NCBI RefSeq assembly: GCF_030388325.1
Contig: NZ_CP103794.1
Location: 62,001 to 126,000, forward strand
Reading direction: 5' to 3'
Origin: Flavobacterium johnsoniae
GTDB lineage: Bacteria > Bacteroidota > Bacteroidia > Flavobacteriales > Flavobacteriaceae
Length of the DNA stretch: 64,000 nucleotides
The notes beneath the pieces were generated by a model. The model did not search any database, was not told the DNA's origin, and saw only the letters and a list, made by a program, of their open reading frames with translations. Positions 18,548-33,283 of the stretch are shown in pieces. A program made the position numbers and the translations under genes. Each line of letters begins with the position of its first letter. Positions within the stretch are counted from its first letter, which is position 1.

Positions 18548-19135
18548 ATGATTCAAACATTATTGTTTAGCTTGGAATTTATATTAGTAGATTTTTTTTC
18601 TACTTATGGAATAATTATTATCATTTGCTTACTTCTTTCAATATTTATTAAAAATCCAATTCTTCAAAAAATTAATGATCAATCAAAGCGTTTCATTACA
18701 TTTATTGGAATTGCTTATTTAATTGTCTTCCTTCTCGCAACAATTATTGAATTAAACATTTCAGATGAGGAAAGTAATTTTTTTTTGCTAAACAGAATGT
18801 TTGGTAAATATTGGTTTGGATTTTGGCTTCAACCGTTACTTTGGTTCTCTATGAGCCAACTTCTTAGAATTAAATCAATCCAAAAAAGTATTCTTTTAAA
18901 ACTAATTTTCAGCTTTTTCTTTATTATATCAATTGAGAAAATAGTAATCATTGTCACATCTTTCCATAGAGACTACTTGCCAAGCTCCTGGACCATGTCT
19001 ACATATTCTTATTCTTCAAATCTATTTCTTGAGCTATTAATTAAATTTTCAATCTTTCTGATTTCTGCTGTTTTTTTTATGATGATTACTCAAAAAATCA
19101 ATGATTGGAAAACAATAAAAACTAACTCACAATAA
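18548..19135 (+). CDS. Integral membrane protein of unknown function
   Basis: This 195-residue protein has about five hydrophobic helices: YGIIIIICLLLSIFI, FITFIGIAYLIVFLLATII, FGFWLQPLLWFSMSQLL, LIFSFFFIISIEKIVIIV and LLIKFSIFLISAVFFMMIT. I recognise no family. Its last 14 bases overlap the 3' end of the convergent btuD gene. Confidence 0.65.
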   Translation: MIQTLLFSLEFILVDFFSTYGIIIIICLLLSIFIKNPILQKINDQSKRFITFIGIAYLIVFLLATIIELNISDEESNFFLLNRMFGKYWFGFWLQPLLWFSMSQLLRIKSIQKSILLKLIFSFFFIISIEKIVIIVTSFHRDYLPSSWTMSTYSYSSNLFLELLIKFSIFLISAVFFMMITQKINDWKTIKTNSQ

Positions 19136-19898
19136 ACTTCCCTTTTTCAGCATCAAAAACAATATTTTCATCTTTAAATAAATTGCTGAAACTTCCATTA
19201 GAAATTAAATTACAAGGCTGATCTTGTGTAATATTTTCTGGCGTCATCATAATCATTTCATCACTTAATTGAATGGCAAGATCAATATCGTGCGTAGAAA
19301 ACAAAATGCATTTTTGAGTTTCTTGCGTTAGCTTTTTCAATAATTTGAACAAAGAAACTTTATGAAGTAAATCTAAATGTGTTGTTGGTTCATCTAAAAT
19401 AATTAGCGGCGTATCTTGTGCCAAAGCTCTTGCAATTAGCACTTTTTGTAATTGTCCGTCGCTAATTTGAAAATGCTTCTTTGAAGCTAAATGTTCAATT
19501 TGGGTTAATCGCATTGCTTCTTGAACTTTTGCAACATCTTCTTCAGATAATTTGTCAACCCAATTTGTGTAAGGCTGACGACCAAGTGCCACTAATTCAA
19601 AAACCGAAAGATTACTTGGAGGCAGTTTTTCTGTTAAAACCAAACTTAAATTTTGTGCTAATTCTAAAGGTTTATAATTCGAAATCTCTTTTTCATTCAA
19701 ATAAACATTTCCTGATAATGTTTTTTGAATTCCGGTAATGGTTCGCAATAAAGTTGATTTTCCAATTCCGTTTGCTCCGATTAATGTAATTAGTTTTCCC
19801 GAAGCTAAACTTAGATTCAGATTCTCAGCAATAGTCGTAACACCTTTCTTGGATTTGTATCCGATATTTAGATGCGACGTAGTTAGAATTGATTTCAT
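19122..19898 (-). CDS. btuD: ABC transporter ATPase, cobalamin/iron-siderophore type (BtuD-like)
   Basis: This 258-residue ATP-binding subunit energises import of a corrinoid or siderophore. It shows Walker A GANGIGKST, Q-loop region, signature ISDGQLQKVLIARAL, Walker B IILDEP and the H-loop FSTHDID. It is last in the minus-strand set with the permease (54-base gap) and binding protein. Siderophore ATPases have the same motifs, so the B12 assignment rests on the neighbouring salvage genes and receptor. Confidence 0.82.
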   Translation of the reverse strand: MKSILTTSHLNIGYKSKKGVTTIAENLNLSLASGKLITLIGANGIGKSTLLRTITGIQKTLSGNVYLNEKEISNYKPLELAQNLSLVLTEKLPPSNLSVFELVALGRQPYTNWVDKLSEEDVAKVQEAMRLTQIEHLASKKHFQISDGQLQKVLIARALAQDTPLIILDEPTTHLDLLHKVSLFKLLKKLTQETQKCILFSTHDIDLAIQLSDEMIMMTPENITQDQPCNLISNGSFSNLFKDENIVFDAEKGKFIVS

Positions 19899-19952: not shown

Positions 19953-20981
19953 TTATTGAAAATTTCTCTTTCTAACCAAAAGCCAAATAACAACAGGCGC
20001 CCCAATAATAGACGTTATCGCGTTAATTGGAAGCGTAACATCGAATCCTGGCATTTGTGAAACAATATCACAAAACAACATGATAATTGATCCGAAAAAT
20101 AAAGTACTCCAAAACAATATAGTATGATTACTGGTTTGAAAAGTCAGTTTTGCGATATGCGGAACTGCTAATCCGATAAAAGCAATTGGTCCAGCAAATG
20201 CCGTTATCGCTCCAGATAAAATACTTGTTGCAAATATGATTATTAATCGAGCTTGTTTAAAATTTAATCCCATGCTTTTTGCATAGTTTTCTCCTAAAAG
20301 TAAAGCATTTAATGGTTTAATGCTTTTCGCGCTCAAAAGCAATCCGATTAAAACGCAGAAAGTCAGAATTCCGATTGTCGACCACGAAAGATTTCCTAAA
20401 CTTCCCATTGACCAAAATGTAAATTTCTGAAGCTGTTCTGCCGTGCTAAAATAAGTTAAAACACTTACAATCGCGGTTGTAAAACTTCCAAACATTAATC
20501 CAACAATCAAGATTGCCATTGTGTCGCGTAATCGCTGCGAAACGACTAAAACCAAAAGCAATACCAAAGTACTTCCGAAAGTAGAAGCCAGAACAATTCC
20601 GTACGATGATAATGCAATTACACTTAAAAACGAAGGCAGAAATCCTGCGCCCAAAATAACAAAAGCAACTCCTAAACTCGCGCCCGAACTTAATCCTAAA
20701 ACATAAGGTCCAGCAAGCGGATTTCGGAATAAAGTCTGCATTAAAAGTCCGCTTATTGAAAGTCCGCTTCCGACTAAAACAGCCGTAATCGCTTTTGGCA
20801 AACGATAATTAATGATAATATATTCCCAAGTTGATTTTGTTGCTTGCCCTCCAGTTAAACTGACAAAAACATCTTTTAGCGGAATCGTAACAGAACCTAA
20901 ACTAATGCTCGCAAAAAACATCAGCAAAAGACCTAAAGTCAAAACAGCAAATAAAATGGTATTTCGTTTTTTATTTGCCAA
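19953..20981 (-). CDS. btuC: FecCD-family ABC transporter permease (BtuC-like)
   Basis: This 342-residue inner-membrane permease of the BtuC/FecCD/FhuB family is predicted to have ten helices. Conserved blocks include YRLPKAITAVLVGSGLSISG, NPLAGPYVLGLSSGASLG, GAITAFAGPIAFIGLAVPHI (part of the ATPase-coupling region) and LPINAITSIIGAPVVIWLL. Its start lies one base from the stop of the upstream binding-protein gene, so they are cotranscribed. Substrate is inferred from the adjacent corrinoid genes. Confidence 0.86.
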   Translation of the reverse strand: MANKKRNTILFAVLTLGLLLMFFASISLGSVTIPLKDVFVSLTGGQATKSTWEYIIINYRLPKAITAVLVGSGLSISGLLMQTLFRNPLAGPYVLGLSSGASLGVAFVILGAGFLPSFLSVIALSSYGIVLASTFGSTLVLLLVLVVSQRLRDTMAILIVGLMFGSFTTAIVSVLTYFSTAEQLQKFTFWSMGSLGNLSWSTIGILTFCVLIGLLLSAKSIKPLNALLLGENYAKSMGLNFKQARLIIIFATSILSGAITAFAGPIAFIGLAVPHIAKLTFQTSNHTILFWSTLFFGSIIMLFCDIVSQMPGFDVTLPINAITSIIGAPVVIWLLVRKRNFQ

Positions 20982-20982
20982 A

Positions 20983-22125
20983 TTAATTCAGTTTTGATGC
21001 AAAAGTAAATTCGTAACTTGACAATAAATCAGGATGAAAAATTTTGATATAATCTTTCAAAACTAGATCTGGACGGCTTGGTGCTAATTCGTAATAAACC
21101 GTTCCGCCAGTTGCGCCCAATTTACCTTCAAAATTGTAAACGCTTTTATTTTTAAAAGCATCAAATTCTCCATAATGCGGATTCGCTTTTTGCAATTCAT
21201 CTAAACTTTTAAATGAACCAGAAGCAATCCAAACATTGGCAGTTTTAGCTTTATCCAATACTTTTTCAAAAGACAAACCTTCACTTCCACTTCCTTTTAA
21301 ATCTGCCCATAAATAATTTGCCTGAGCATCTTTCATAAATTGTGCAACCCAACTATTTCCTTTTGCAACATACCAAACATCTTCATACATAGAGCCGTAT
21401 AATACTTTTGAAGTCGCAGGTTTATCTTTAACTAACTTTAAAGCTTGATTATAACTTTCTACAATTTTATCAAAAAGCTCTTTTGCTTTGTCTTCTTTTC
21501 CAAATAAAGCCCCGTAAAGCTTGATCCATTCTGCTTTTCCAAGTGGAGATTGCTCCATCCAATCGCCTTGAATTAAAACATTTAAGCCGCTTTTTTTCAG
21601 ATTATCCAACATCGGATTGTTATTATCAACTCCAAAAGTCACTATCAAATTTGGTGCTAATTCTATTAATTGCTCGATATTCAATTTTTCATTTTGTCCA
21701 ACATTTTTCACAGAACCTTTGTCAATTAAAGCTCTTGTTTTTTCTGAAGAAATATAGTCTGTGTGCGGAAAACCAACTAATTTGTTTTCTACTTCAAGCA
21801 TTTCTAAAAACGGAATATTTGTCGTAGAAGTTACTACGACAGATTCTAGTGGAACTTGAATAGAAGTGTAAGACAGAAGACTATCTGGAACTTTTGCATC
21901 TTTTTCTTTTAAAATATACTTGAAATCTTTATCTGAATTAGGCCATGGATTTGAGACTGTTACAACAGAATAATCATCATATTTTAAAATTGAAAGTCCT
22001 GATGCATATTCAATACTATTTTTAGTATTCTCTATTTTTACGGTTTCAACTTTTTCATTCTTCTTACATCCAATAAGGATAAAAAAAGTTGCTGTAAAAA
22101 TCATTTTAGGAAAAAAATATCTCAT
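20983..22125 (-). CDS. btuF: ABC transporter substrate-binding lipoprotein (BtuF-like)
   Basis: This 380-residue lipoprotein has a signal ending in the lipobox LIGC at Cys20, counted from the ATG at 22125. I chose that start because a second ATG 21 bases upstream only adds MPSKTET before the signal. Lys residues follow the Cys rather than an acidic run, suggesting retention on the periplasmic side. The domain is the two-lobed periplasmic-binding-protein type used for siderophores and B12 (SLLSYTSIQVPLESVVVTST, LAPNLIVTFG, LAPSRPDLVLKDYIKIFHP). It is first in the btuF-btuC-btuD set. Confidence 0.83.
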   Translation of the reverse strand: MRYFFPKMIFTATFFILIGCKKNEKVETVKIENTKNSIEYASGLSILKYDDYSVVTVSNPWPNSDKDFKYILKEKDAKVPDSLLSYTSIQVPLESVVVTSTTNIPFLEMLEVENKLVGFPHTDYISSEKTRALIDKGSVKNVGQNEKLNIEQLIELAPNLIVTFGVDNNNPMLDNLKKSGLNVLIQGDWMEQSPLGKAEWIKLYGALFGKEDKAKELFDKIVESYNQALKLVKDKPATSKVLYGSMYEDVWYVAKGNSWVAQFMKDAQANYLWADLKGSGSEGLSFEKVLDKAKTANVWIASGSFKSLDELQKANPHYGEFDAFKNKSVYNFEGKLGATGGTVYYELAPSRPDLVLKDYIKIFHPDLLSSYEFTFASKLN

Positions 22126-22219
22126 GGTTTCGGTTTTGGATGGCACAAAGGTAAAGTATTTTTATATTTTTTTTGTTTACCTTTATTCTTACAAATTTAA
22201 ACAATTGTATCTTTGCGAT

Positions 22220-22679: not shown

Positions 22680-23189
22680 ATGCTTCACTTAATCATTGGC
22701 GGTGAGCGTTCTGGAAAAAGTAGTTATGCCCAAAAACTTGCTTTAGAACTTTCTAATTCACCTTTATATATTGCAACGGCTCGAAAATGGGATTCTGATT
22801 TTCAAACCCGAATTGATCGTCATCAAAACGAACGCGACGAACGCTGGACCAATATTGAAGAAGAAAAACATCTGAGTAAAATTGATTTTTCTGGAAAAAC
22901 AGCATTAATTGACTGCGTTACACTTTGGTTGACAAACTTTTTTGTAGACAACAAAAATGACGTTGCTTTGAGTTTGGAAGAAGCTAAAAAAGAATTTCTT
23001 GCTATTGCGAAAAATCAAAACTCCAATATCATCATTGTAACAAACGAAATCGGAATGGGCGTTCATGCAGAAACTCATATCGGCAGAAAATTTGTTGAAC
23101 TTCAAGGTTGGATGAATCAATTTCTTGCCGAAAATGCTGACGAGGTTGTTTTGATGGTTTCGGGAATTCCGGTAAAAATTAAAGGATAA
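22680..23189 (+). CDS. cobU: Adenosylcobinamide kinase / adenosylcobinamide-phosphate guanylyltransferase
   Basis: This 169-residue bifunctional enzyme activates cobinamide with phosphate and then GMP, giving adenosyl-GDP-cobinamide. Seen are the P-loop GGERSGKSSYAQ at the N-terminus, RHQNERDERW (with the His that carries GMP), LIDCVTLWLTNFF and TNEIGMGVHAETHIGRKF. It begins the plus-strand salvage run cobU, bluB-cobT, cobS, cobC. Confidence 0.93.
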   Translation: MLHLIIGGERSGKSSYAQKLALELSNSPLYIATARKWDSDFQTRIDRHQNERDERWTNIEEEKHLSKIDFSGKTALIDCVTLWLTNFFVDNKNDVALSLEEAKKEFLAIAKNQNSNIIIVTNEIGMGVHAETHIGRKFVELQGWMNQFLAENADEVVLMVSGIPVKIKG

Positions 23190-23318
23190 CCAAATTCAAT
23201 GTCAATCACAATTACAATATCAAAAAACAAATTCTAAACTTTTAAATTCTAAATTCCAATATCGTGAAGTATCTTTACATAAAGAGCAAATTGATATTGA
23301 TTTTTGAAATTGAAAATT

Positions 23319-24998
23319 ATGAGCAATCTAGACGATATATTAAAATCCCGCCGCGATACCCGACATTTTACAACCGATGAAGTTCCTGATGAAGTAATTC
23401 AGAAAGCTTTACAGGCTGGACATTGGGCGCCTTCTGTCGGGTTAACTGACGCGACTAGATATTTCCTCATTAAATCGGATGAAGTTAAAAGTTCTATAAA
23501 AAATCTGTTTTTAGATTACAACAAAAAAGCAGCTGAACTTACTGATAACGAAGAACAAAAAGAACTATATAATTCGCTAAAACTAGAAGCAATCGAAGAA
23601 GCTCCAATCGGACTTATTATTGCTTATGACCGTTCTGTTTTAAACCAATTTACAATTGGAACGATTGGAAGCAATGAAGCCGTGAAATTCAGTTCGGTTT
23701 GTGCGGCGCAGAATATCTGGCTTTCGCTTACAGAACAAGGTTACGGAATGGGATGGGTTTCTATTTTGAATTATTATCAGTTTAAAAAAATCCTCGATTT
23801 ACCCGAAAATATTGAACCGTTGGGTTATTTCTGTATCGGAAAACCAGCAACAAATTATAACAATCAGCCAATGCTTCAGCAATTGCATTGGAAACAGAAA
23901 TCGGAAGCTCCAATTTGTAAAGAGATTAACGAAATTCATAAAATAAATATTCCTGATTTTACAGTTAAATCTGAAAATGAAATCGCCGACAAATCTGATT
24001 TTTGTAAACTTTTGCAAGAAAAAATAGATTCGAAAACAAAACCTGTTGGTTCTTTGGGAACTCTTGAAACTTTAGCTTTTCAAATGGCTACTGTTTTCGA
24101 AACTTTAAATCCGAAAATTACAAATCCGAATATTGTAGTTTTTGCGGCAGATCACGGAATTGCAAATCATGACGTAAGCGATTATCCGCAAGATGTTACA
24201 CGCCAAATGGTTACTAATTTTCTGGATGGTGGAGCCGCAATAAATGTTTTCTGCAAACAAAACGATATTGAATTATCTATTGTAGATGCTGGCGTAAATT
24301 ACGATTTCCCAACCAATGCAAAATTGATTAATTCGAAAATTGCTAAAGGAACTCAGTCATTTTTACACGTTCCAGCAATGAGCGAAACTGAAGTTCAATT
24401 ATGTTTTGAAAAAGGAAAATCGATTGTTGATACTATTGCAAAATCAGGCGCAAACTGCATCGGTTTTGGCGAAATGGGAATTGGAAATACTTCTACAGCT
24501 TCTGTTTTAATGAGTCTTTTAACTGGTTTTTCTATTGAAGAATGTGTCGGAAAAGGAACTGGAGTTTCTGATGAAAAGCTCATTCAAAAACAAAATATTT
24601 TAAAAAAAGCTATCGAAAATTATTCTGGCAAAACCGATTTAATGTCACAGCTTGCTTATTTTGGAGGTTTTGAAATTCTACAAATGGCGGGCGGAATGCT
24701 TTCTGCTTTTGAAAACAAAATGCTGATTTTAGTTGATGGTTTTATTTGCACTGTCGCCTTTTTAATCGCTTCAAAAATAAATCCGAATATTTCAAAAAAT
24801 GCTATTTTTTGTCATTGTTCTGCCGAAAAAGCACATCAAAAATTATTAAATTATTTAGATGCAAAAACAATTTTAAATTTAGATTTACGCTTAGGCGAAG
24901 GAACAGGCTGCGCGGTTGCTTTTCCAATTTTAAAATCGGCTGAGGCTTTTTTGAATGAAATGGCTAGTTTTGAGAGCGCGGGAATAAGTCGAAAGTAG
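23319..24998 (+). CDS. bluB-cobT: BluB-CobT fusion: DMB synthase joined to DMB phosphoribosyltransferase
   Basis: This 559-residue fusion has BluB (flavin-destroying 5,6-dimethylbenzimidazole synthase, nitroreductase fold) at residues 1 to about 215, with SRRDTRHFTTDEVP, GHWAPSVGLTDATRYF, GYGMGWVSIL and LGYFCIGKPA. CobT (about 228-555) has DSKTKPVGSLGTLETLAFQM, FAADHGIANHDVSDYPQDVT, GFGEMGIGNTSTASVL and the catalytic-Glu segment LGEGTGCAVAFP. The first half makes the lower ligand and the second attaches ribose phosphate to it. The ATG at 23319 is preferred over the TTG five codons earlier. There is no stop or frameshift between the domains; the joint is a short polar linker near residues 205-230. 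Confidence 0.92.
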   Translation: MSNLDDILKSRRDTRHFTTDEVPDEVIQKALQAGHWAPSVGLTDATRYFLIKSDEVKSSIKNLFLDYNKKAAELTDNEEQKELYNSLKLEAIEEAPIGLIIAYDRSVLNQFTIGTIGSNEAVKFSSVCAAQNIWLSLTEQGYGMGWVSILNYYQFKKILDLPENIEPLGYFCIGKPATNYNNQPMLQQLHWKQKSEAPICKEINEIHKINIPDFTVKSENEIADKSDFCKLLQEKIDSKTKPVGSLGTLETLAFQMATVFETLNPKITNPNIVVFAADHGIANHDVSDYPQDVTRQMVTNFLDGGAAINVFCKQNDIELSIVDAGVNYDFPTNAKLINSKIAKGTQSFLHVPAMSETEVQLCFEKGKSIVDTIAKSGANCIGFGEMGIGNTSTASVLMSLLTGFSIEECVGKGTGVSDEKLIQKQNILKKAIENYSGKTDLMSQLAYFGGFEILQMAGGMLSAFENKMLILVDGFICTVAFLIASKINPNISKNAIFCHCSAEKAHQKLLNYLDAKTILNLDLRLGEGTGCAVAFPILKSAEAFLNEMASFESAGISRK

Positions 24999-25062: not shown

Positions 25063-25860
25063 ATGAAAAAAGAACTACACATTTTCTTTACCTGTTTAAT
25101 GTTCTACACCAGAATTCCCTGTCCAAAAAACATTACGCATGATCCGGATTATTTAAATAAAGCTACAAGATATTTTCCTTTTATTGGATGGATTGTTGGT
25201 AGTATTTCTTTTATAGCTTATTCTCTATTTGCTCAATTTCTTTATACAGAAACAGCCGTGATTTGTTCGATCGTGATTTCCGTTTTAACAACTGGGGCTT
25301 TTCACGAAGACGGTTTTGCAGATGTTTGCGATGGTTTTGGCGGAGGCTGGACAAAAGAAAAAATCTTGATGATAATGAAAGACAGTGTAATTGGCGCTTA
25401 TGGAGCAATTGGATTGGTTTTGCTTTTTTTATTAAAATTCAGATTGTTATCAGAATCTATTATAATATTTCAAGTTTATGATGACATGGCAGTTTTTAAA
25501 ATTTTCCTCTTATTTATTTCTGCGCATTCTATAAGTCGATTGGCAGCGATCAGCATTATTTTCACGCATGAATATTCTCGCGAAGACGCTTCAAGCAAAA
25601 GCAAGCCAATTGCCAAACAATTTACTTGGAAAGAAGTTTTTGGCTCTTTCTTTTTTGGTCTAGTTCCTTTAATTGTATTTTCTCTTTTTGATTTTAGATT
25701 AATTCTAGCCGTAATTCCTGTTTTTATAACGAGATATTTTTTAGCTCGATATTTCCAAAAATGGATTGACGGTTATACAGGAGATTGTCTAGGAGCGACG
25801 CAGCAAGTTTGCGAAATTATATTTTACCTAAGTATTCTACTTATATGGAAATTTATCTAG
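25063..25860 (+). CDS. cobS: Adenosylcobinamide-GDP ribazoletransferase
   Basis: This 265-residue inner-membrane enzyme joins alpha-ribazole (phosphate) to GDP-cobinamide, closing the nucleotide loop. It carries the family motif HEDGFADVCDGFGGG followed by KDSVIGAYGAIGLVLLFLL, SRLAAI, and a C-terminal GYTGDCLGATQQVCEI, with about six hydrophobic helices. Its final 16 bases overlap cobC. Confidence 0.93.
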   Translation: MKKELHIFFTCLMFYTRIPCPKNITHDPDYLNKATRYFPFIGWIVGSISFIAYSLFAQFLYTETAVICSIVISVLTTGAFHEDGFADVCDGFGGGWTKEKILMIMKDSVIGAYGAIGLVLLFLLKFRLLSESIIIFQVYDDMAVFKIFLLFISAHSISRLAAISIIFTHEYSREDASSKSKPIAKQFTWKEVFGSFFFGLVPLIVFSLFDFRLILAVIPVFITRYFLARYFQKWIDGYTGDCLGATQQVCEIIFYLSILLIWKFI

Positions 25861-26378
25861 TTCGTCATACCGAAACCATTTGCGAAAAAGGAATTTGTTA
25901 CGGACAGTCAGACGTAAATATTGCAGAACCTTTTGATGAAATTTTCGATAAAATTATTTCCGAATTACCATCCGAAGCTGTTATTTTTTCGAGTCCGTTA
26001 AAGCGTTGTGTAATTTTAGCAAAACATATTCAAGAAAACATAAATGCAATTTCTTATCAAGAAGACGATCGCTTAAAAGAAATGAATTTTGGCGATTGGG
26101 AATTGAAAACTTGGAATGAAATTCCGCCTGAAGAACTCAATCCGTGGATGGAAGATTTTGTAAATATTAAAGTTTCAAACGGCGAATCTTTTACAGAACT
26201 TCATGAAAGAGTTGGTGATTTTTTAACGAATGAAATTTCAAAAATAAAAGAACCCATTATTATCGTTGCTCATGCAGGAATAATTAGGAGTATTTTGTGC
26301 CATCAAACTTCACTTCCTTTAAAAGATGCATTTAATAACAAAGTTGATTTTGGCGAAGTTATCAGAATTGAATTATAA
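25845..26378 (+). CDS. cobC: Alpha-ribazole phosphatase, histidine phosphatase family
   Basis: This 177-residue phosphatase would remove the phosphate from alpha-ribazole-5'-phosphate or adenosylcobalamin-5'-phosphate. It has the phosphohistidine motif LVRHTET, the second Arg in SSPLKRCV, EMNFGDWE and the second His in VAHAGIIRS. I use the ATG at 25845, which gives the canonical N-terminus MEIYLVRH; a longer frame would run inside cobS. Confidence 0.88.
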   Translation: MEIYLVRHTETICEKGICYGQSDVNIAEPFDEIFDKIISELPSEAVIFSSPLKRCVILAKHIQENINAISYQEDDRLKEMNFGDWELKTWNEIPPEELNPWMEDFVNIKVSNGESFTELHERVGDFLTNEISKIKEPIIIVAHAGIIRSILCHQTSLPLKDAFNNKVDFGEVIRIEL

Positions 26379-26421
26379 ATCTGATGTTTGTTTGATTATT
26401 AAGCCTTAAAAGTGAAACAAA

Positions 26422-26454
26422 TTTGAAAATTCAATATTTTTAACTTTATCTTTG
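26422..26454 (+). promoter_or_regulatory. Promoter for the riboswitch-btuB transcript
   Basis: TTTG at 26422-26425 and TATCTTTG at 26447-26454 are spaced by 21 bases, a match to the Bacteroidetes -33/-7 pattern. Transcription would begin just at the 5' edge of the cobalamin aptamer. Confidence 0.75.
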
Positions 26455-26460
26455 CAGCAA

Positions 26461-26640
26461 ATTAAGGTTGTGTTTAAACAAACACATTAAAAGGGAATCA
26501 AGTAAATTCTTGAGCTGTACCCGCAACTGTAAGCTTAGTTCTTAAACGAATGCTTGTTGTAAACTGCAAAACCACTGCCACGCACTGCGTGATGGGAAGG
26601 TAAACAACAAGACGCAAGCCAGGAGACCTGCCTTTGTAAC
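26461..26640 (+). promoter_or_regulatory. Cobalamin riboswitch (AdoCbl class)
   Basis: The 5' untranslated region shows the cobalamin aptamer elements in order: AAGGTTGT near the 5' end, AAAGGGAATCAAGT, GCTGTACCCGCAACTGTAAGC, CACTGCCACG with GTGATGGGAAGG, and the B12 box AGCCAGGAGACCTGCC at 26617-26632. It is followed by a short segment (TTTGTAACAAA, then GAGCTCTCGGG) that may form the expression platform before the ATG at 26678. There is no T-run hairpin, so control of translation start is more likely than termination. It controls the receptor and lipoprotein downstream. Confidence 0.95.
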
Positions 26641-26677
26641 AAATTATCGAGCTCTCGGGAAAAAGAGTGTAGAAATT

Positions 26678-28513
26678 ATGACTATAAAACTAAGGTTTGC
26701 TTTTTGTTTACTGTTGTTGTGCCAGATTATTTCGGCGCAGAATGATTCTATTAATAAATTGAAAGAGGTTGTCGTTTCTGATAACAATCTTAAGAATTTC
26801 TCCAATACACAATCGATACAAAGGTTAAGCGATTCTATTATAAGCAAAAACCAATCTTCATTAACTTCTCTTTTAAATTATAATACTATAATCTATTTTA
26901 AAGAAAATGGATTAGGAATGACTTCTTCGCCTTCCTTTAGAGGAACTACTTCTCAACAGACTGTAGTAGTCTGGAATGGAATAAATATCAACTCTCAGTT
27001 ATTAGGACAAGCAGATTTTAATACTATTTCAACACGAGGTTTTAATTCGATAGATGTAAAAGCAGGCGGAGGAAGTGTTGTTTACGGAAGCGGTGCAATT
27101 GGAGGAACTATTCATTTAAATAATGATTTGAAATTTACAGATACATTCAAAAACGATTTTCAAATTTATTATGGAGAATTTAATACTGTAAGTGCAATTT
27201 ATGGCATTACGGCAGCAACCAAGAAATGGAGTTTTGATGCCAGTTTTACTAGAAATAGCTCTGATAATGATTTTAAATTTGTCGGTCAAGAAGTTTGGAA
27301 CAAAAACGGACAATACTACAATAATACTCTTGATGCAGCAATTGGTTATAAAATAAATGACAAAAACAGCATCAAATTTTATAGCGAAATTTATGATGGC
27401 GAACGTCACTTTTCTCTAACATCGCCAAATGCAACCAAAACAAAATACCAAGATTACAACACTCGTAATTTATTAACATGGAGCAGTTCTTTTAGTAATT
27501 TCAATTCAAATGTGAGACTTGCTTACATAACAGAACATTACAATTATTTTGAAGACATCAATCTAGACGGATATACTTCTGGTGGAGTAAAAAGTTTCAT
27601 TGGAAAATATGATCTTGATTACACGATTTCTTCTACAATGAAAATAAGTACCATTTTAGATTACACTAAAAATGACGGTTTAGGCTCTGGTATTGGAAGA
27701 AGTACACGTCAAATTGGTGGCGCAAGTTTATTATGGAAACATACGCTTACAGAAAAATGGAATTATGAAATGAGCGCTAGAAAAGAAGTTTCAGATGTCT
27801 ACAAAAGTCCTGTTCTTTTCTCTGTTGGCTCACGCTACAATTTTTCAGATTTCTATAAGCTTAAATTTAACTTTTCGAGAAATTTCAGAATTCCAACTTT
27901 TAATGATTTGTATTGGGAAGGAAGCGGAAATCCGGATTTAAAACCCGAAAGTTCGTTTCAGGCAGAAATTGGAAATGAATTTACTTATAAAGATTTTCGA
28001 ATGACCATTACGGCATACGGAATGAAGATTAAAGACATGATTCGTTGGTTACCAAACAATACCGGAAATTGGTCTCCAGAAAATACAGACAGAGTTACTA
28101 TTTATGGCGCTGAAGCACTTTTAGGATGGAAAAAAAGTTTTGGCAAAAACACTTTCGATTTTAGCGGTACTTATGCTTACACCGTTTCATTGGACGACAG
28201 AACAGATAAACAGCTTTTTTACGTGCCTTATCATAAACTAACTGGTTCTTTATCTTATTATTATAAGAAACTTTCTGCCTATTATCAAATTATGTATACG
28301 GGCGAAATTTTTACAACATCAGATAATAATCCAAAATATATACTTGACGCTTACAATGTTTCGAACATTGGTGTTGATTACAATTTTAGCAAGAAAAACA
28401 TTTTCAAATTGGGAGTTAAAGCCGCTAATCTTTGGAATGAAAAATATGAAGCTCTACCTAGCCGATTTATGCCTGGGCGAAATTTAACTATTTATTTAAA
28501 CCTTAATTATTAA
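26678..28513 (+). CDS. btuB: TonB-dependent receptor, BtuB-type vitamin B12 transporter
   Basis: This 611-residue outer-membrane receptor has a signal peptide (about 1-20, ending IISAQ). The plug domain starts at KEVVVSDNN and includes SFRGTTSQQTVVVWNGININ and GGGSVVYGSGAIGGTI. A 22-strand-type barrel follows, including NFRIPTFNDLYWEGSGNPDL and the C-terminal GRNLTIYLNLNY with an aromatic last residue. It lacks the N-terminal carboxypeptidase-like domain of SusC-type receptors, and its length equals that of BtuB. The cobalamin riboswitch upstream makes the corrinoid assignment strong. Confidence 0.9.
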   Translation: MTIKLRFAFCLLLLCQIISAQNDSINKLKEVVVSDNNLKNFSNTQSIQRLSDSIISKNQSSLTSLLNYNTIIYFKENGLGMTSSPSFRGTTSQQTVVVWNGININSQLLGQADFNTISTRGFNSIDVKAGGGSVVYGSGAIGGTIHLNNDLKFTDTFKNDFQIYYGEFNTVSAIYGITAATKKWSFDASFTRNSSDNDFKFVGQEVWNKNGQYYNNTLDAAIGYKINDKNSIKFYSEIYDGERHFSLTSPNATKTKYQDYNTRNLLTWSSSFSNFNSNVRLAYITEHYNYFEDINLDGYTSGGVKSFIGKYDLDYTISSTMKISTILDYTKNDGLGSGIGRSTRQIGGASLLWKHTLTEKWNYEMSARKEVSDVYKSPVLFSVGSRYNFSDFYKLKFNFSRNFRIPTFNDLYWEGSGNPDLKPESSFQAEIGNEFTYKDFRMTITAYGMKIKDMIRWLPNNTGNWSPENTDRVTIYGAEALLGWKKSFGKNTFDFSGTYAYTVSLDDRTDKQLFYVPYHKLTGSLSYYYKKLSAYYQIMYTGEIFTTSDNNPKYILDAYNVSNIGVDYNFSKKNIFKLGVKAANLWNEKYEALPSRFMPGRNLTIYLNLNY

Positions 28514-28517
28514 AAAC

Positions 28518-29549
28518 ATGAAATTAAAAAATCTTTATTTAGGAATTATTGCCTCTGCATTTTTATTTGCTTCTTGTAGCAGTGATGATGACGACAACGA
28601 CGTTCCGTTGGGAGTTTATGACAATGGTGTGCTTATTTTAAATGAAGGAAATTTTGGAACGCCTAATGCATCAGTTTCTTACGTTTCAAATGATTTGGCT
28701 ACTTTTCAAAATGATATTTTCAAATTGGTAAATACTCCAATGATTCTTGGAGATGTTGCTCAATCAATGTCTTTTAGCAATGAAAAAGCTTTTATTGTTG
28801 TAAACAATTCTAATGAGGTAGAAGTTGTAAACCGTTATACTTTTAAAAGTTTGGGAACAATTACAGAAAAACTTCAAAACCCACGTTACAGTGTTGTTGT
28901 AAATGACAAATTATATGTAACAAATTCAATTTCTCAAGCTGTTACCGTTTATGATGCAAAAACTTATGCTTACATAACTTCAATTTCATTAGGAAAAACT
29001 GCTGAAAAAATTATTGCTGCAAACGGAAAAATTTATGTAACAAATGCAGCTTACGGAAGCGGAAGTGAAGTGACTGTTATTAGCCCTTCAACAAATACTG
29101 TAACTAAAACAATCACACTAGAAAATGGTATTAATTCGATTGAAGAAAATAATGGATCTGTATATGTATTAGCAGGAACTAGCACTAAAAGTAAATTATT
29201 CAAAATTAACACTTCTACAGATACTGCAACATCTTTCGAATCGACTACAGTAAAAAATGCTATAAACATGGATATTGATGGAGATAAAATCTATTACACT
29301 CAAGGAACTGGTGTTTATGCAATTAACTTATCTGCAACAGCTTTTTCAGACAAAGCTTTATTTTCTGTAAAAGATAGCAGCTGGTCTACTTTTTATGGTT
29401 TTGGAGTAATCGATGGCAGAATATATTCTGGTGATGCAAATGCATTTACTTCAGACGGAACTGTTACTGTATATTCTTCAACTGGAACAGTATTAAAAAC
29501 ATTAACTGTTGGCGTAGGACCAAATGGTTTTTATTCTAACAATAATTAG
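28518..29549 (+). CDS. Surface beta-propeller lipoprotein, BtuG-like (YncE/DUF5074 type)
   Basis: This 343-residue lipoprotein has a lipobox Cys20 (FLFASC) followed by SSDDDDND, an acidic run like the Bacteroidetes surface-export signal. The body has repeated four-strand propeller blades (NRYTFKSLGTI, VYDAKTYAYITSISLG, KIYVTNAAYGSG, TVYSSTGTVLKTLTVG), which is YncE-like. It starts 4 bases after btuB and shares the riboswitch. Bacteroides BtuG is a surface seven-bladed propeller that binds B12 tightly and sits on BtuB, so position, topology and fold all match. Orthology to BtuG is inferred, not proven. Confidence 0.82.
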   Translation: MKLKNLYLGIIASAFLFASCSSDDDDNDVPLGVYDNGVLILNEGNFGTPNASVSYVSNDLATFQNDIFKLVNTPMILGDVAQSMSFSNEKAFIVVNNSNEVEVVNRYTFKSLGTITEKLQNPRYSVVVNDKLYVTNSISQAVTVYDAKTYAYITSISLGKTAEKIIAANGKIYVTNAAYGSGSEVTVISPSTNTVTKTITLENGINSIEENNGSVYVLAGTSTKSKLFKINTSTDTATSFESTTVKNAINMDIDGDKIYYTQGTGVYAINLSATAFSDKALFSVKDSSWSTFYGFGVIDGRIYSGDANAFTSDGTVTVYSSTGTVLKTLTVGVGPNGFYSNNN

Positions 29550-29571
29550 AATTTATTTTTTTTTTTGGAAT

Positions 29572-29603
29572 AAAAAAGGCTTTCATTTCTGAAAGCCTTT
29601 TTT
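29572..29603. terminator. Bidirectional terminator between btuG-like and S41 protease genes
   Basis: A perfect 14-bp stem (AAAAAAGGCTTTCA and its complement, four-base loop TTTC) carries both the A-run and the T-run, so it serves both convergent transcripts. Confidence 0.92.
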
Positions 29604-29619
29604 AATATATTTAATTTTC

Positions 29620-31065
29620 TTAGAATACTTTTGGTGCAGTTTTAAGATACATTCCGTGTCTTAATCCGTTTAAGATTTTTGAGTCTGTTACATAAGGACG
29701 TAAAGGCTCAGAATCTGTTTGGATTTTCTTAGCTGCATTTCCAGTTATTTTCGAAATTGCATTACTAAGCAAAGGTTCTGTAGTTTCTCCTAAAACACCA
29801 TAATTAAGAACCGATTCAAACTGTTGGTAAGTTGGCACTAAACCTTGTGTATAATCTCCAAAATTAACAGAGTTTGTAATTTTAAGAACCAAAGGCTGCA
29901 TTGCATATTTATGATTTGGGTTGATTCCTTTTTTAGTCGTCAGAGTTTCTGAATCATAAACTGTAAACGATCCAACATTTTTTCCAACTGTAGTTTCTCC
30001 GATTTGAACAACATTAATGTACGGTTTTAATCCGTTGATAATTAATTCACTTGCAGAAGCTGTACTTGCAGTTGTAATAACATAAACAGTAGTCATATTC
30101 AAGCTGTTTAAGTTTTTAACGAATCTAACGTTTAAATCCTCCAAATCAGCTGTACTAAGACCTTGCATTTGTTTGCTATTAAAAGTCATTTTTGAGAAGA
30201 TTTGTGTATCGAATTGTCCAGTAATCATACTAGCCAGTTTCGCAGATGTTGCAATAGATCCTCCTCCATTATAACGAAGATCTAAAATAAAATCTGTAAC
30301 TCCTTGTCCTTTCAATGTACCAAAAGCTTGATTCAATCTATCATCATAATCAGCATAGAAACCGTTGTACATTAAATAACCTATTTTATGGCTTCCAGAA
30401 GTAATTACTTTATTGATGAAAATTGGATTTTCTTCTAAAACCGTTTTCGTTAAAGAAACCGATTTTCCATTCAAAACAAAAGCACTTCCGTTATAATCAG
30501 CTAAATTTAATGTGTAAGTATCTTTGCCTATTAACTCTTGATAATTAGAAACAGTAAGTTTGGTTCCGTTAATGCTTGTAAACAAATCACCACGTTTAAT
30601 AGCTTTTGTTGAAGCATCAGAATTTGGAATAATATAGCGAACATAACCAACCAAATCATTTGATCCTGAAGCAACTCGGCTTAATCTAAAATCTACTCCA
30701 TTGTTTTTTGAGATTCCGCTTAATTCTTGTTCCAAAACAGTATAATCATCAACAATCCAGCTAAAACGGTCAATTGCATCTCCGTTTGGATATTTGCTTT
30801 CTGGTTTATTCAATAAATCTTGAAACAAATCTTCTGGTTTTGCATAACCTTTTAAGAAATTATTAAAGTCATTTTCAGTTGCAAAACGGTTATCGGCTAA
30901 ATTCGGAACATCGGCTTGCCATAAATAAACTTCATTTAATCCTTTCCAGATAAAACTATTAATCTGTACGTCTGCTGGAGCGGCAACATCGTCATTATCT
31001 TCACATGACTGCAAAGAGAAAGCGAATAAAAAAAGAAAAAGAGCACTCTTTAAAATTGTTTTCAT
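29620..31065 (-). CDS. S41-family (C-terminal processing) peptidase lipoprotein
   Basis: This 481-residue lipoprotein has Cys21 in FSLQSC followed by EDNDD, suggesting surface exposure. An N-terminal helical region contains the PDZ-like segment (GDLFTSINGTKL). The S41 catalytic core has LDLRYNGGGS, the nucleophile in TASASELI and the general-base Lys in GETTVGKNVGS. It likely trims or degrades outer-surface proteins. It stands alone and shares the terminator at 29572-29603. Confidence 0.88.
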   Translation of the reverse strand: MKTILKSALFLFLFAFSLQSCEDNDDVAAPADVQINSFIWKGLNEVYLWQADVPNLADNRFATENDFNNFLKGYAKPEDLFQDLLNKPESKYPNGDAIDRFSWIVDDYTVLEQELSGISKNNGVDFRLSRVASGSNDLVGYVRYIIPNSDASTKAIKRGDLFTSINGTKLTVSNYQELIGKDTYTLNLADYNGSAFVLNGKSVSLTKTVLEENPIFINKVITSGSHKIGYLMYNGFYADYDDRLNQAFGTLKGQGVTDFILDLRYNGGGSIATSAKLASMITGQFDTQIFSKMTFNSKQMQGLSTADLEDLNVRFVKNLNSLNMTTVYVITTASTASASELIINGLKPYINVVQIGETTVGKNVGSFTVYDSETLTTKKGINPNHKYAMQPLVLKITNSVNFGDYTQGLVPTYQQFESVLNYGVLGETTEPLLSNAISKITGNAAKKIQTDSEPLRPYVTDSKILNGLRHGMYLKTAPKVF

Positions 31066-31228
31066 ATCATTTAAGTATCTTAGTAGTATAGTGTAAAAGT
31101 AGCATCTTTAATATTAGCTTGGTCATAAAAGCAATATTTTTTTTACATAAAAAAAAATTATTTTTTGTTGTAACAAATCTAATTGTGCTTCGTCTTGAAT
31201 ATATAAGCTAACGATTAACCATCAGATA

Positions 31229-31738
31229 ATGAACCAAGTTGTATTTATAGAATTAATAAATCCTTTTAAAGACAAAGTTTTTCGTCTGGCAAAAAGATTG
31301 CTTACAAGTACTGAAGAAGCCGAAGATGCAACTCAGGAAGTAATGGTGAAATTATGGAACAAAAAAGAAAGTCTGGAAAGTTACAATAGTGTTGAAGCGC
31401 TTGCAATGACAATGACTAAAAATTATTGCTTGGATCAGTTAAAATCTAAACGAGCCAGTAATCTTCAAATTGTTCATAATAATTTTACTGACCGACAGCC
31501 GCAATTGGACAAAAAATTAGAAGATGAAAACAGTTTAGAATGGGTTGAAAAAATAATAAATCAAATGCCAGAACAAATGCAAATGTTAATTCAGCTTCGA
31601 GATGTAGAACAATATGAGTTTGACGAAATAGCCAAAATCGTTAATATGAATGAAACGGCAATACGAGTTGCACTTTCGAGAGCAAGAAAAAAAATTAGAG
31701 AATCAATGACAAATACACACCTTTATGGAACCAAATAA
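31229..31738 (+). CDS. ECF-type RNA polymerase sigma factor
   Basis: This 169-residue protein has sigma region 2 (VFRLAKRLLTSTEEAEDATQ, then EVMVKLWNK) and region 4 (LRDVEQYEFDEIAKIVNMNE, then RVALSRARKKIRE). It overlaps the next gene by 14 bases. It heads a four-gene operon with a membrane protein and two DUF4252 proteins, the usual arrangement for this flavobacterial sigma factor group. Confidence 0.9.
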   Translation: MNQVVFIELINPFKDKVFRLAKRLLTSTEEAEDATQEVMVKLWNKKESLESYNSVEALAMTMTKNYCLDQLKSKRASNLQIVHNNFTDRQPQLDKKLEDENSLEWVEKIINQMPEQMQMLIQLRDVEQYEFDEIAKIVNMNETAIRVALSRARKKIRESMTNTHLYGTK

Positions 31739-32198
31739 AATAGAAGATATATTAGAAAAATACTTTGAGGGAGAAACTTCTGTTGCCGAAGAAAATCAAT
31801 TAAGAGAATACTTTTCTTCACCAAATGTTGCGCAGCATTTGGAACAGTACAAACCAATGTTTGGTTATTTCTCTCAAGCAAAAGAACAGAAGTCGACGCA
31901 CGAGATTCCACTACTCCCGAAGTCTCGGGATAAAAAACGCAACGTAGCGTGGTTATCTATTGCAGCTTCAGCTGTTGTTTTAATGGGAATTGGAACTTAC
32001 TTTTTCGTTAGCGAACAAAAAGAGACTACTGCAGTAGCTTCGCAAACAGAATTAGGAACTTACCAAGATCCCGAAGAAGCGCTAAAAGCAACTCAAAAGG
32101 CTTTAGCATTATTATCAAACAATGTTAATGTAGGTATCGAAAGTGTACAGTACATTAAAGAATACGAACAATCAAAAAACAAAATTTTTAAACAGTAA
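31725..32198 (+). CDS. Putative anti-sigma membrane protein
   Basis: This 157-residue protein has an N-terminal segment with EPNKIEDILEKYFEGETSVA then EENQLREYF, the pattern of short anti-sigma heads. A single membrane helix lies at about 75-93 (AWLSIAASAVVLMGIGTYFF), followed by a periplasmic tail. Its overlap with the sigma-factor gene supports an anti-sigma role, which is inferred. It lacks a recognisable zinc-binding HxxxCxxC motif. Confidence 0.72.
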   Translation: MEPNKIEDILEKYFEGETSVAEENQLREYFSSPNVAQHLEQYKPMFGYFSQAKEQKSTHEIPLLPKSRDKKRNVAWLSIAASAVVLMGIGTYFFVSEQKETTAVASQTELGTYQDPEEALKATQKALALLSNNVNVGIESVQYIKEYEQSKNKIFKQ

Positions 32199-32214
32199 TT
32201 AAATTCAAATAAAA

Positions 32215-32742
32215 ATGAAAAATTTCATCATAACTTTAGTATTCGCATTCGTTACAAACGTTTTTTATGCACAAGGTGCTTTTGACAAATTTGACGGTCA
32301 AGACGATGTAACTTCTGTAATTGTAAACAAGAAAATGTTCGATTTAATGAGCAAAGTAAACGCTGACAATTCAGACAAAGAAACGCAGCAATATATCAAA
32401 CTAATTAAAAAATTAGATTACTTAAAAGTCTTTACAACCAAAAATCCTAAAATCGAAGCCGAAATGAAAGCTTCTGCAGATAAATACATAAAAACTGCTG
32501 GTCTTGAAGAATTAATGAGAGTAAATGACAGCGGTAAAAATGTCAAAATTATGGTTAAATCTGGTGCAAGCGACACACAAATTAAAGAATTATTAATGTT
32601 TGTAGACGGCGCAAAAAATGACGAAACTGTTCTTTTGTCTCTAACTGGTAATTTTGATTTGAACGAAATCTCTGTTTTAACAGATAAAATGAATCTTCCT
32701 GGTGGTACAGATTTAAAGAAAGCTTCTAAAAACAAAAAATAA
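32215..32742 (+). CDS. DUF4252 domain exported protein
   Basis: This 175-residue protein has a signal peptide (MKNFIITLVFAFVTNVFYAQ) and a DUF4252-type body (DDVTSVIVNKKMFDLMSKV, MRVNDSGKNVKIMVKSGA, DETVLLSLTGNFDLNEISVL). The role of the family is unknown; it is common next to ECF sigma factors in flavobacteria. It is followed after one base by a second DUF4252-like lipoprotein. Confidence 0.85.
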   Translation: MKNFIITLVFAFVTNVFYAQGAFDKFDGQDDVTSVIVNKKMFDLMSKVNADNSDKETQQYIKLIKKLDYLKVFTTKNPKIEAEMKASADKYIKTAGLEELMRVNDSGKNVKIMVKSGASDTQIKELLMFVDGAKNDETVLLSLTGNFDLNEISVLTDKMNLPGGTDLKKASKNKK

Positions 32743-32743
32743 A

Positions 32744-33283
32744 ATGAAAGCAACTGTTTTTATCTCAACCCTATTCTTCTTACTGACTTTGGTAAGTTGC
32801 AATTCTGAACCTTCACTTCAAAAATATTTTGTTGAGAATTCGGAGAAAAAAGACTTTATTGCCTTAGATGTTTCGCCAAACATTCTAAATGTTGACAAAG
32901 CAAAATTATCCGCAGAACAAAACGAAGCTTTAAATTCTTTTGATAAAATGAATATTCTGGCTTTTAAAGCAGATCAAAAAAATCAGACTGAGTTTGAAAT
33001 TGAAAGAAATAAGGTAAAAGCCATTTTAAAAGATTCGAAATATCAGGAATTAATGAAATTTGGTTCTGGTAAAGACGGCGCTTCAGTAAGCTATGTTGGA
33101 AGTGACGACAATATTAAAGAGTTTGTCATTTTCGCCAACAGAAAAGAAAACGGTTTTGCTGTAGTTCGTGTTTTAGGCGAAGATATGAATCCGAACAATA
33201 TTATTACTTTAATGTCTGTTTTACAAAAATCAAAAATAGATATGGAGCAACTAAAACCTTTACAAGAATTACTTAAAAAATAA
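32744..33283 (+). CDS. DUF4252-like lipoprotein
   Basis: This 179-residue lipoprotein has lipobox Cys19 (LTLVSC) and a body parallel to the preceding protein: a conserved core FIALDVSPNILNVDK, SDDNIKEFVIFANRKENGFA and a C-terminal helix. It is a likely divergent paralogue of the 32215-32742 product and last in the sigma-factor operon, which ends at the terminator 33304-33335. Confidence 0.8.
   Translation: MKATVFISTLFFLLTLVSCNSEPSLQKYFVENSEKKDFIALDVSPNILNVDKAKLSAEQNEALNSFDKMNILAFKADQKNQTEFEIERNKVKAILKDSKYQELMKFGSGKDGASVSYVGSDDNIKEFVIFANRKENGFAVVRVLGEDMNPNNIITLMSVLQKSKIDMEQLKPLQELLKK

Follow-up and report, generated by a model that had tools for sequence, protein, structure and literature searches.

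A probable riboswitch-controlled BtuB-BtuG-type gene pair in Flavobacterium johnsoniae, at a site where some relatives carry a BtuG-free receptor

Riboswitch, receptor, and propeller lipoprotein

We analyzed a 64,000-nucleotide stretch of the Flavobacterium johnsoniae genome (contig NZ_CP103794.1, positions 62,001 to 126,000; the window), focusing on a cobalamin riboswitch followed by genes for a TonB-dependent receptor and a propeller lipoprotein (Table 1). A first-pass annotation had described a complete cobalamin aptamer with its own promoter, a receptor of BtuB length, and a lipoprotein resembling BtuG of Bacteroides. The aptamer is indeed full length, above the gathering threshold of 31.5 bits, and is one of two cobalamin riboswitches in the genome. 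The promoter element is of the type TAnnTTTG, which we take to be the Bacteroidota consensus, and stands at the riboswitch start in all 14 relatives examined (17 fetched). The region from 26300 to 29700 has 5 terminator-like sites versus 1.4 expected, and one hairpin follows btuG.

Table 1. Features of the locus and its surroundings, in window coordinates
Feature	Position	Strand	Evidence or remark
Promoter element TATCTTTG, TAnnTTTG type	26447..26454	+	Sequence, kept in relatives
Cobalamin riboswitch aptamer, RF00174	26448..26649	+	93.2 bits, E 7.3e-22, model 1-189 of 189
BtuB-type TonB-dependent receptor, 611 aa, BtuB2/BtuB3-like	26678..28513	+	Plug and barrel, solved chains
EL8-equivalent motif WLPNNTGNWSPEN, receptor residues 457-469	28046..28084	+	Alignment to 8p98_A
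BtuG-type propeller lipoprotein, 343 aa (DUF5074)	28518..29549	+	
Lipid-anchor Cys20 and acidic export signal SSDDDD	28575..28595	+	Sequence
Short loop, 8 residues, replacing the Tyr239-bearing beta5A loop of BtuG2/3	29172..29195	+	
Terminator-like hairpin after btuG	29571..29604	+	
cobU, cobinamide kinase/guanylyltransferase	22680..23189	+	NF004469 173.9 bits, cut-off 161
bluB-cobT fusion	23304..24998	+	BluB TIGR02476 164.2 (cut-off 150), CobT TIGR03160 423.5 (cut-off 319.3), one ORF
cobS	25063..25860	+	NF001277 294, cut-off 273
cobC, alpha-ribazole phosphatase	25845..26378	+	TIGR03162 168.1, cut-off 162.9
btuF-like periplasmic binding protein	20983..22146	-	PF01497 101.8 bits; NCBIfam BtuF model just 12.8 bits
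btuC-like permease	19953..20981	-	PF01032 260.5 bits; top NCBIfam model BtuC 207.1, cut-off 334
btuD-like ABC ATPase	19122..19898	-	FecE and corrinoid-ATPase models top, all shown below cut-off

The receptor carries Pfam Plug (50.5 bits) and barrel (115.5 bits) domains and best matches BtuG-partnered receptors among solved chains, namely BtuB2 (8bmx_C; E 3.6e-38) and BtuB3 (8p98_A; E 3.8e-38). In the alignment to 8p98_A, its Trp466 falls on Tyr538 of BtuB3; the published EL8 tip, Ser524-Leu531, does not fit the numbering of the printed chain (residue 524 is Ile), and Tyr538 alone was used. A strict EL8 motif, picked after the alignment had been inspected, occurs in 22 of 28 paired-type receptors versus 0 of 53 BtuG-free-type receptors. 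The aromatic alone was rejected as diagnostic; because it also occurs in several BtuG-free receptors, only the proline-containing motif separates the two types. The EL8-type motif here is compatible with a stable BtuB-BtuG complex.

The lipoprotein reading frame starts 4 bases past the receptor stop, and its product matches DUF5074 (PF16819; 68.1 bits, cut-off 27.2). The acidic run after the anchor cysteine, also part of the first-pass description, forms with the lipobox ASC20 a predicted surface-export signal; the available portion of PMC5080379 gives SDDDD for Bacteroides fragilis and SDDFE for F. johnsoniae. Lipobox and signal together are as expected of a BtuG, judged against that portion and the available text of PMC6143338. 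By sequence alone, BtuG homology runs from E 2.1e-21 (8p97_B) to 1.9e-11 (8ptf_A), over residues 10-338 to 38-337. The structure prediction that the annotation had called for gave a seven-bladed propeller like 3DSM/BtuG2, as its YncE-like blades implied, and the 11 top solved entries are all BtuG.

BtuK1 of Bacteroides thetaiotaomicron (9s6c) is likewise a propeller lipoprotein that binds B12, as is predicted for the window's protein. We nevertheless consider it highly improbable that this surface lipoprotein serves some other function (as a BtuK-/BtuL-like accessory or YncE type) and is just cotranscribed with btuB: the BtuG entries lie 6 to 8 Z units ahead of the next fold, the sequence matches BtuG at E 2e-21 versus 2e-6 for BtuK1, and the receptor gene adjoins the propeller gene, with gaps of 0 to 13 bases, in all 28 window-type pairs read. 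Identity as an orphan YncE was rejected, with BtuG clearly ahead by sequence and structure. Homologues are named YncE, DUF5074, YVTN propeller, or hypothetical in databases, much as the annotation had expected, and genes named YncE or DUF5074 could be renamed where the neighborhood agrees.

BtuG homologues and cobalamin riboswitches

We ran a BtuG profile of 23 sequences (A1) on one genome each from 100 Flavobacteriaceae genera, which gave 38 matches above 250 bits, with the next score falling to 128. Less than 6 kb upstream of 36 of the 38 lies a cobalamin riboswitch; without the F. johnsoniae genome the figure, for matches above 200 bits, is 34 of 36, so the arrangement is not due to chance. 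Of the two remaining matches, one (G079) follows a BtuB cut by a contig start. The other (L142; G033 C23:191938-192990) is for a BtuG-like lipoprotein, and no riboswitch or BtuB was seen next to it. The likeness to BtuG in fold, location, and partner is supported by structure, sequence match, the riboswitch/BtuB neighborhood of homologues, and their database names, and homologues almost always sit behind a cobalamin riboswitch and BtuB. Two refuting conditions named in the annotation, a structure lacking the propeller fold and homologues never found near B12 receptors, did not apply.

BtuG is not universal in the family, as it was found in 33 of the 100 genera. Across the phylum, a match at E ≤1e-20 occurs in 83 of 198 genomes, and the weaker of these matches may be other propellers. 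Pfam DUF5074 was ruled out as a sufficient marker: it misses pairs, and none of eight long DUF5074-matched proteins outside this genome lies behind a riboswitch. The missed genes (L052 3246-4295 and L070 3274-4317), found with A1, are true BtuG genes adjoining BtuB. At another locus (L021 2403-4805; G076), a tandem pair of BtuG-type genes follows one BtuB.

Ligand pocket

The BtuG2 loop that carries Tyr239 (Asp236-Pro249) helps grip the vitamin in a plier-like manner (PMC10404256). The BtuG2 pocket set (W194, Y239, W272, Y316, and Y335) keeps an aromatic at three positions in the window protein, where Tyr179, Tyr293, and Phe310 stand for Trp194, Tyr316, and Tyr335. The 8-residue beta5A loop recurs in all 17 close relatives, a set seeded with the window protein and so biased towards its subgroup. 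Among 37 BtuGs of the genus sample, the loop has at least 15 residues in 26 (an aromatic is present in 25 of these), 10 to 14 in 6, and no more than 9 in 5. Genus-wide absence of the long loop was ruled out: L156 and L157, from the window's genus, have 15-residue loops with an aromatic, which makes the short loop a trait of the window's subgroup. The BtuG-like identity proposed in the first pass stands, but the extreme affinity of BtuG2 should not be assumed for a subgroup lacking the Tyr239-bearing loop. We expect corrinoid binding to persist and retention to be lower.

One site, two receptor types

The 100 genera hold 113 cobalamin riboswitches, which precede a BtuB-BtuG pair (35), a BtuB without BtuG (52), or other genes (26, one of which, in G021, was not individually fetched). 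By genome, and counting BtuG-free receptors behind riboswitches only, 32 have BtuG only, 51 BtuG-free only, 1 both, and 16 neither (Fisher test, 4e-13, which ignores kinship). A cobalamin riboswitch is present in all 61 genomes of the window's genus, where both types were sought genome-wide: 31 have BtuG only, 27 BtuG-free only, 1 both, and 2 neither (Fisher test, 7e-14, again ignoring kinship; the BtuG-free receptor of G325 is fragmented, and G308 is divided between contigs). The single BtuG-free receptor compared with solved structures (L043) best matches Escherichia coli BtuB (1nqe; E 9.9e-33). Genome size was too weak an explanation of receptor type (medians of 3.8 versus 3.5 Mb; n = 30 versus 15, ≥95% complete; P 0.04).

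One locus (L152; G060 C3:177900-181700) has a BtuG-type propeller adjoining a BtuG-free-type receptor and could show gain or loss of the lid. Its genome is tallied above as BtuG only, and its receptor is among the 53 BtuG-free-type ones scored for EL8.

Both receptor types share flanking genes. At least one of five genes downstream of the window's pair (an S41 protease, a sigma factor, its partner, and two small secreted proteins) lies near 46 of 52 BtuG-free loci; of the 27 pair genomes with downstream DNA read, 17 have such a gene after the pair. Close pair loci have cobC just upstream in 15 of 17 and the S41 block downstream in 14 of 17 (two are short contigs), and the 20 BtuG-free loci of the genus have cobC (5) or btuF (14) upstream and part of the S41 block downstream (15). 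Locus L187 (G350 C55:49000-62000) has the window's gene order except that btuB-btuG is replaced by a BtuG-free btuB. Its gapped DNA homology to the window extends to 26664, is absent over btuB-btuG, and returns at the terminator hairpin (29571). L183 and L191 are similar, with homology returning later (29852 and 29951), and at the pair locus L176 homology continues across btuB-btuG. L187 would make a good comparison genome.

For trees of the flanks, we used rows that have the sigma gene and three or more of the five flanking genes (54 rows, or 53 once one long row is removed). The quick tree (36 BtuG-free, 17 pair, and 1 mixed) has 16 state changes versus 15.5 with shuffled labels. The careful tree, made without the long row, has 15 (bootstrap 5-95%, 14 to 16), 12 of them forced by well-supported branches, and strengthens the count of receptor-type changes.

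Replacement by recombination within the slot is one way to arrive at this distribution; an ancestor with both receptor types, followed by loss of one or the other, is another. Exclusive, scattered states are expected from either process, and the number of changes does not distinguish gains from losses. We nevertheless find ancestral coexistence rather doubtful, since both types are kept in just one of the 100 genera (G094) and one of the 61 genus genomes (G340, an 87% complete, 300-contig assembly), on different contigs in each, since well-supported branches force at least 12 changes, and since homology between the window and L187 ends just past the riboswitch and resumes at the terminator.

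Scored against the window's leader, riboswitch leaders have a median of 368 in the 17 close pair relatives and 117.5 in the 20 BtuG-free loci of the genus; in other genera the values are 67 (28 pair loci) and 69 (53 BtuG-free-type loci), and the genome's own second riboswitch scores 50. These values indicate that between genera kinship outweighs receptor type. Within the genus, the higher scores of closer pair loci do not separate kinship from leader and receptor traveling together.

We conclude that the coding cassette behind the riboswitch is usually a slot for either a BtuB-BtuG pair or a BtuG-free BtuB, rarely both per genome. We give about even credence to a broader proposal: that in Flavobacteriaceae this riboswitch-marked slot has switched between a lidded pair and an E. 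coli-like BtuB without a lid at least a dozen times, with flanks kept and practically never both present, and that the window's subgroup, lacking the gripping loop, has a weaker-holding, faster-releasing lid.

Predicted capture mechanism and corrinoid supply

Several features weigh against assigning the window's genes to the BtuB-BtuG type. Identity to known BtuGs is just 25 to 27% across the aligned structure, the beta5A loop has no aromatic and half the 16 residues of its BtuG3 equivalent, and the Trp272 position also lacks an aromatic (in BtuG3 as printed, this residue is Ala). Counted from Cys20 onward as K/R minus D/E, the net charge is -10, less negative than the -18 reported for BtuG2 and the median of -31 among the 37 BtuGs, and BtuG3 counts -11. 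The receptor scores 113.2 on the NCBIfam BtuB equivalog TIGR01779, under its cut-off of 599.7; this model also matches 16 of 16 BtuG-free flavobacterial BtuBs, and the single one tabled, at 179.8, is likewise under the cut-off. Finally, 6 of the 28 paired receptors lack the strict EL8 motif. The analysis shows the genes, the riboswitch, the homology, the predicted fold, the conserved linkage, and a shortage of ring-synthesis methylases. We hold with considerable confidence that the window encodes a riboswitch-controlled BtuB-BtuG corrinoid capture pair, in a slot that holds either this pair or a BtuB without BtuG.

Homology makes exposure at the surface, binding of corrinoids, assembly of a complex, and ligand hand-off all probable. 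At low intracellular cobalamin, the riboswitch would permit btuB-btuG expression. BtuG, lipidated at Cys20 and flipped to the cell surface through its acidic signal, would sit as a lid on BtuB and capture cobalamin or other corrinoids in its propeller pocket. The EL8-equivalent loop of BtuB would then push the ligand into the receptor for TonB-driven import, with entry into the cytoplasm by way of BtuFCD-like proteins. CobU, BluB-CobT, CobS, and CobC would turn incomplete corrinoids into cobalamin for MetH and mutases.

The cobU, bluB-cobT, cobS, and cobC genes lie directly upstream of the riboswitch on the same strand, and the btuF-, btuC-, and btuD-like genes lie beyond them on the opposite strand. 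The pair might accordingly serve mainly to import precursors or analogues (cobinamide or pseudocobalamin) and less cobalamin itself, as these upstream genes lead from cobinamide to cobalamin and BtuG2 binds cobinamide too (PMC10404256). We regard this as unlikely: BtuG2 makes no lower-ligand contact and binds several corrinoids (PMC10404256), and precursor import is a question of preference rather than an exclusive alternative.

One family search placed TP-methylases at three sites in the genome, too few for corrin-ring synthesis, and the genome encodes MetH, methylmalonyl-CoA mutase, and an IcmF-like mutase. With too few methylases and with B12 enzymes present, the bacterium probably depends on imported corrinoids; it can probably also complete unfinished ones. 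BluB-CobT is a single 564-residue protein, so dimethylbenzimidazole would be made and activated by one polypeptide. Downstream, from 29620 to 33283, lie genes for the S41 protease (minus strand), the sigma factor and its partner, and two small proteins that are secreted or lipidated; the S41-protease/sigma-factor block recurs beside B12 receptors in Flavobacteriaceae.

Behind the second riboswitch (C1:3204757; L013 6758-15026) are genes for a receptor like BtuB1 (E 2e-118) and a propeller like BtuG1 (E 1e-53). The locus also encodes three lipoproteins in tandem, of which the first matches the 8blw_B H domain (BtuH; E 2.5e-73), and a DUF4465 member of the BtuJ family, as assigned in the available part of PMC12751083.

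Comparison with known systems

BtuG is known from gut Bacteroides, whose dense habitat is one proposed reason for a tight surface trap (Wexler 2018, as far as its text was available). In the accessible portions of two other papers, the BtuG survey covers 313 gut genomes (PMC6143338) and BtuG is named for B. thetaiotaomicron only (PMC12578637). A search of one open-access library found no report of flavobacterial BtuG or of alternation between lidded and lidless receptors. Here, the pair occurs in Flavobacterium genomes seemingly unable to make the corrin ring, with relatives lidless at the same site. This amounts to a natural experiment: near-identical gene orders occur with and without the lid, mostly free of the multilocus redundancy seen in B. 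thetaiotaomicron, so that a direct measurement of the lid's benefit would be possible.

The closest known systems are BtuB2G2 and BtuB3G3 of B. thetaiotaomicron (8bmx, 8p97, and 8p98), in which receptor and propeller lipoprotein are likewise adjacent and B12 regulated. Shared features include the fold, the lipobox with export signal, three pocket aromatics, and an EL8-type W.P-x-[WFY].P.N motif. The window's system differs in its low identity, its shorter beta5A loop without an aromatic, and a receptor ∼80 to 100 residues shorter than the solved chains. It also lies behind cobU/bluB-cobT/cobS/cobC, whereas BtuB2G2 and BtuB3G3 belong to a many-lipoprotein operon, according to the available part of PMC12751083. 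BtuB1G1 (8blw) resembles not the window pair but the second locus of this genome, where G and H are encoded separately. E. coli BtuB is a TonB-dependent B12 receptor like the window's but has no lid (PMC6143338, available portion); it is the best match of the BtuG-free receptor at L043, whereas the window receptor's best matches are BtuG partnered. As a B12 capture pair, the window's system joins the already known BtuB-BtuG kind, and the alternation of lidded and lidless receptors is the part worth following.
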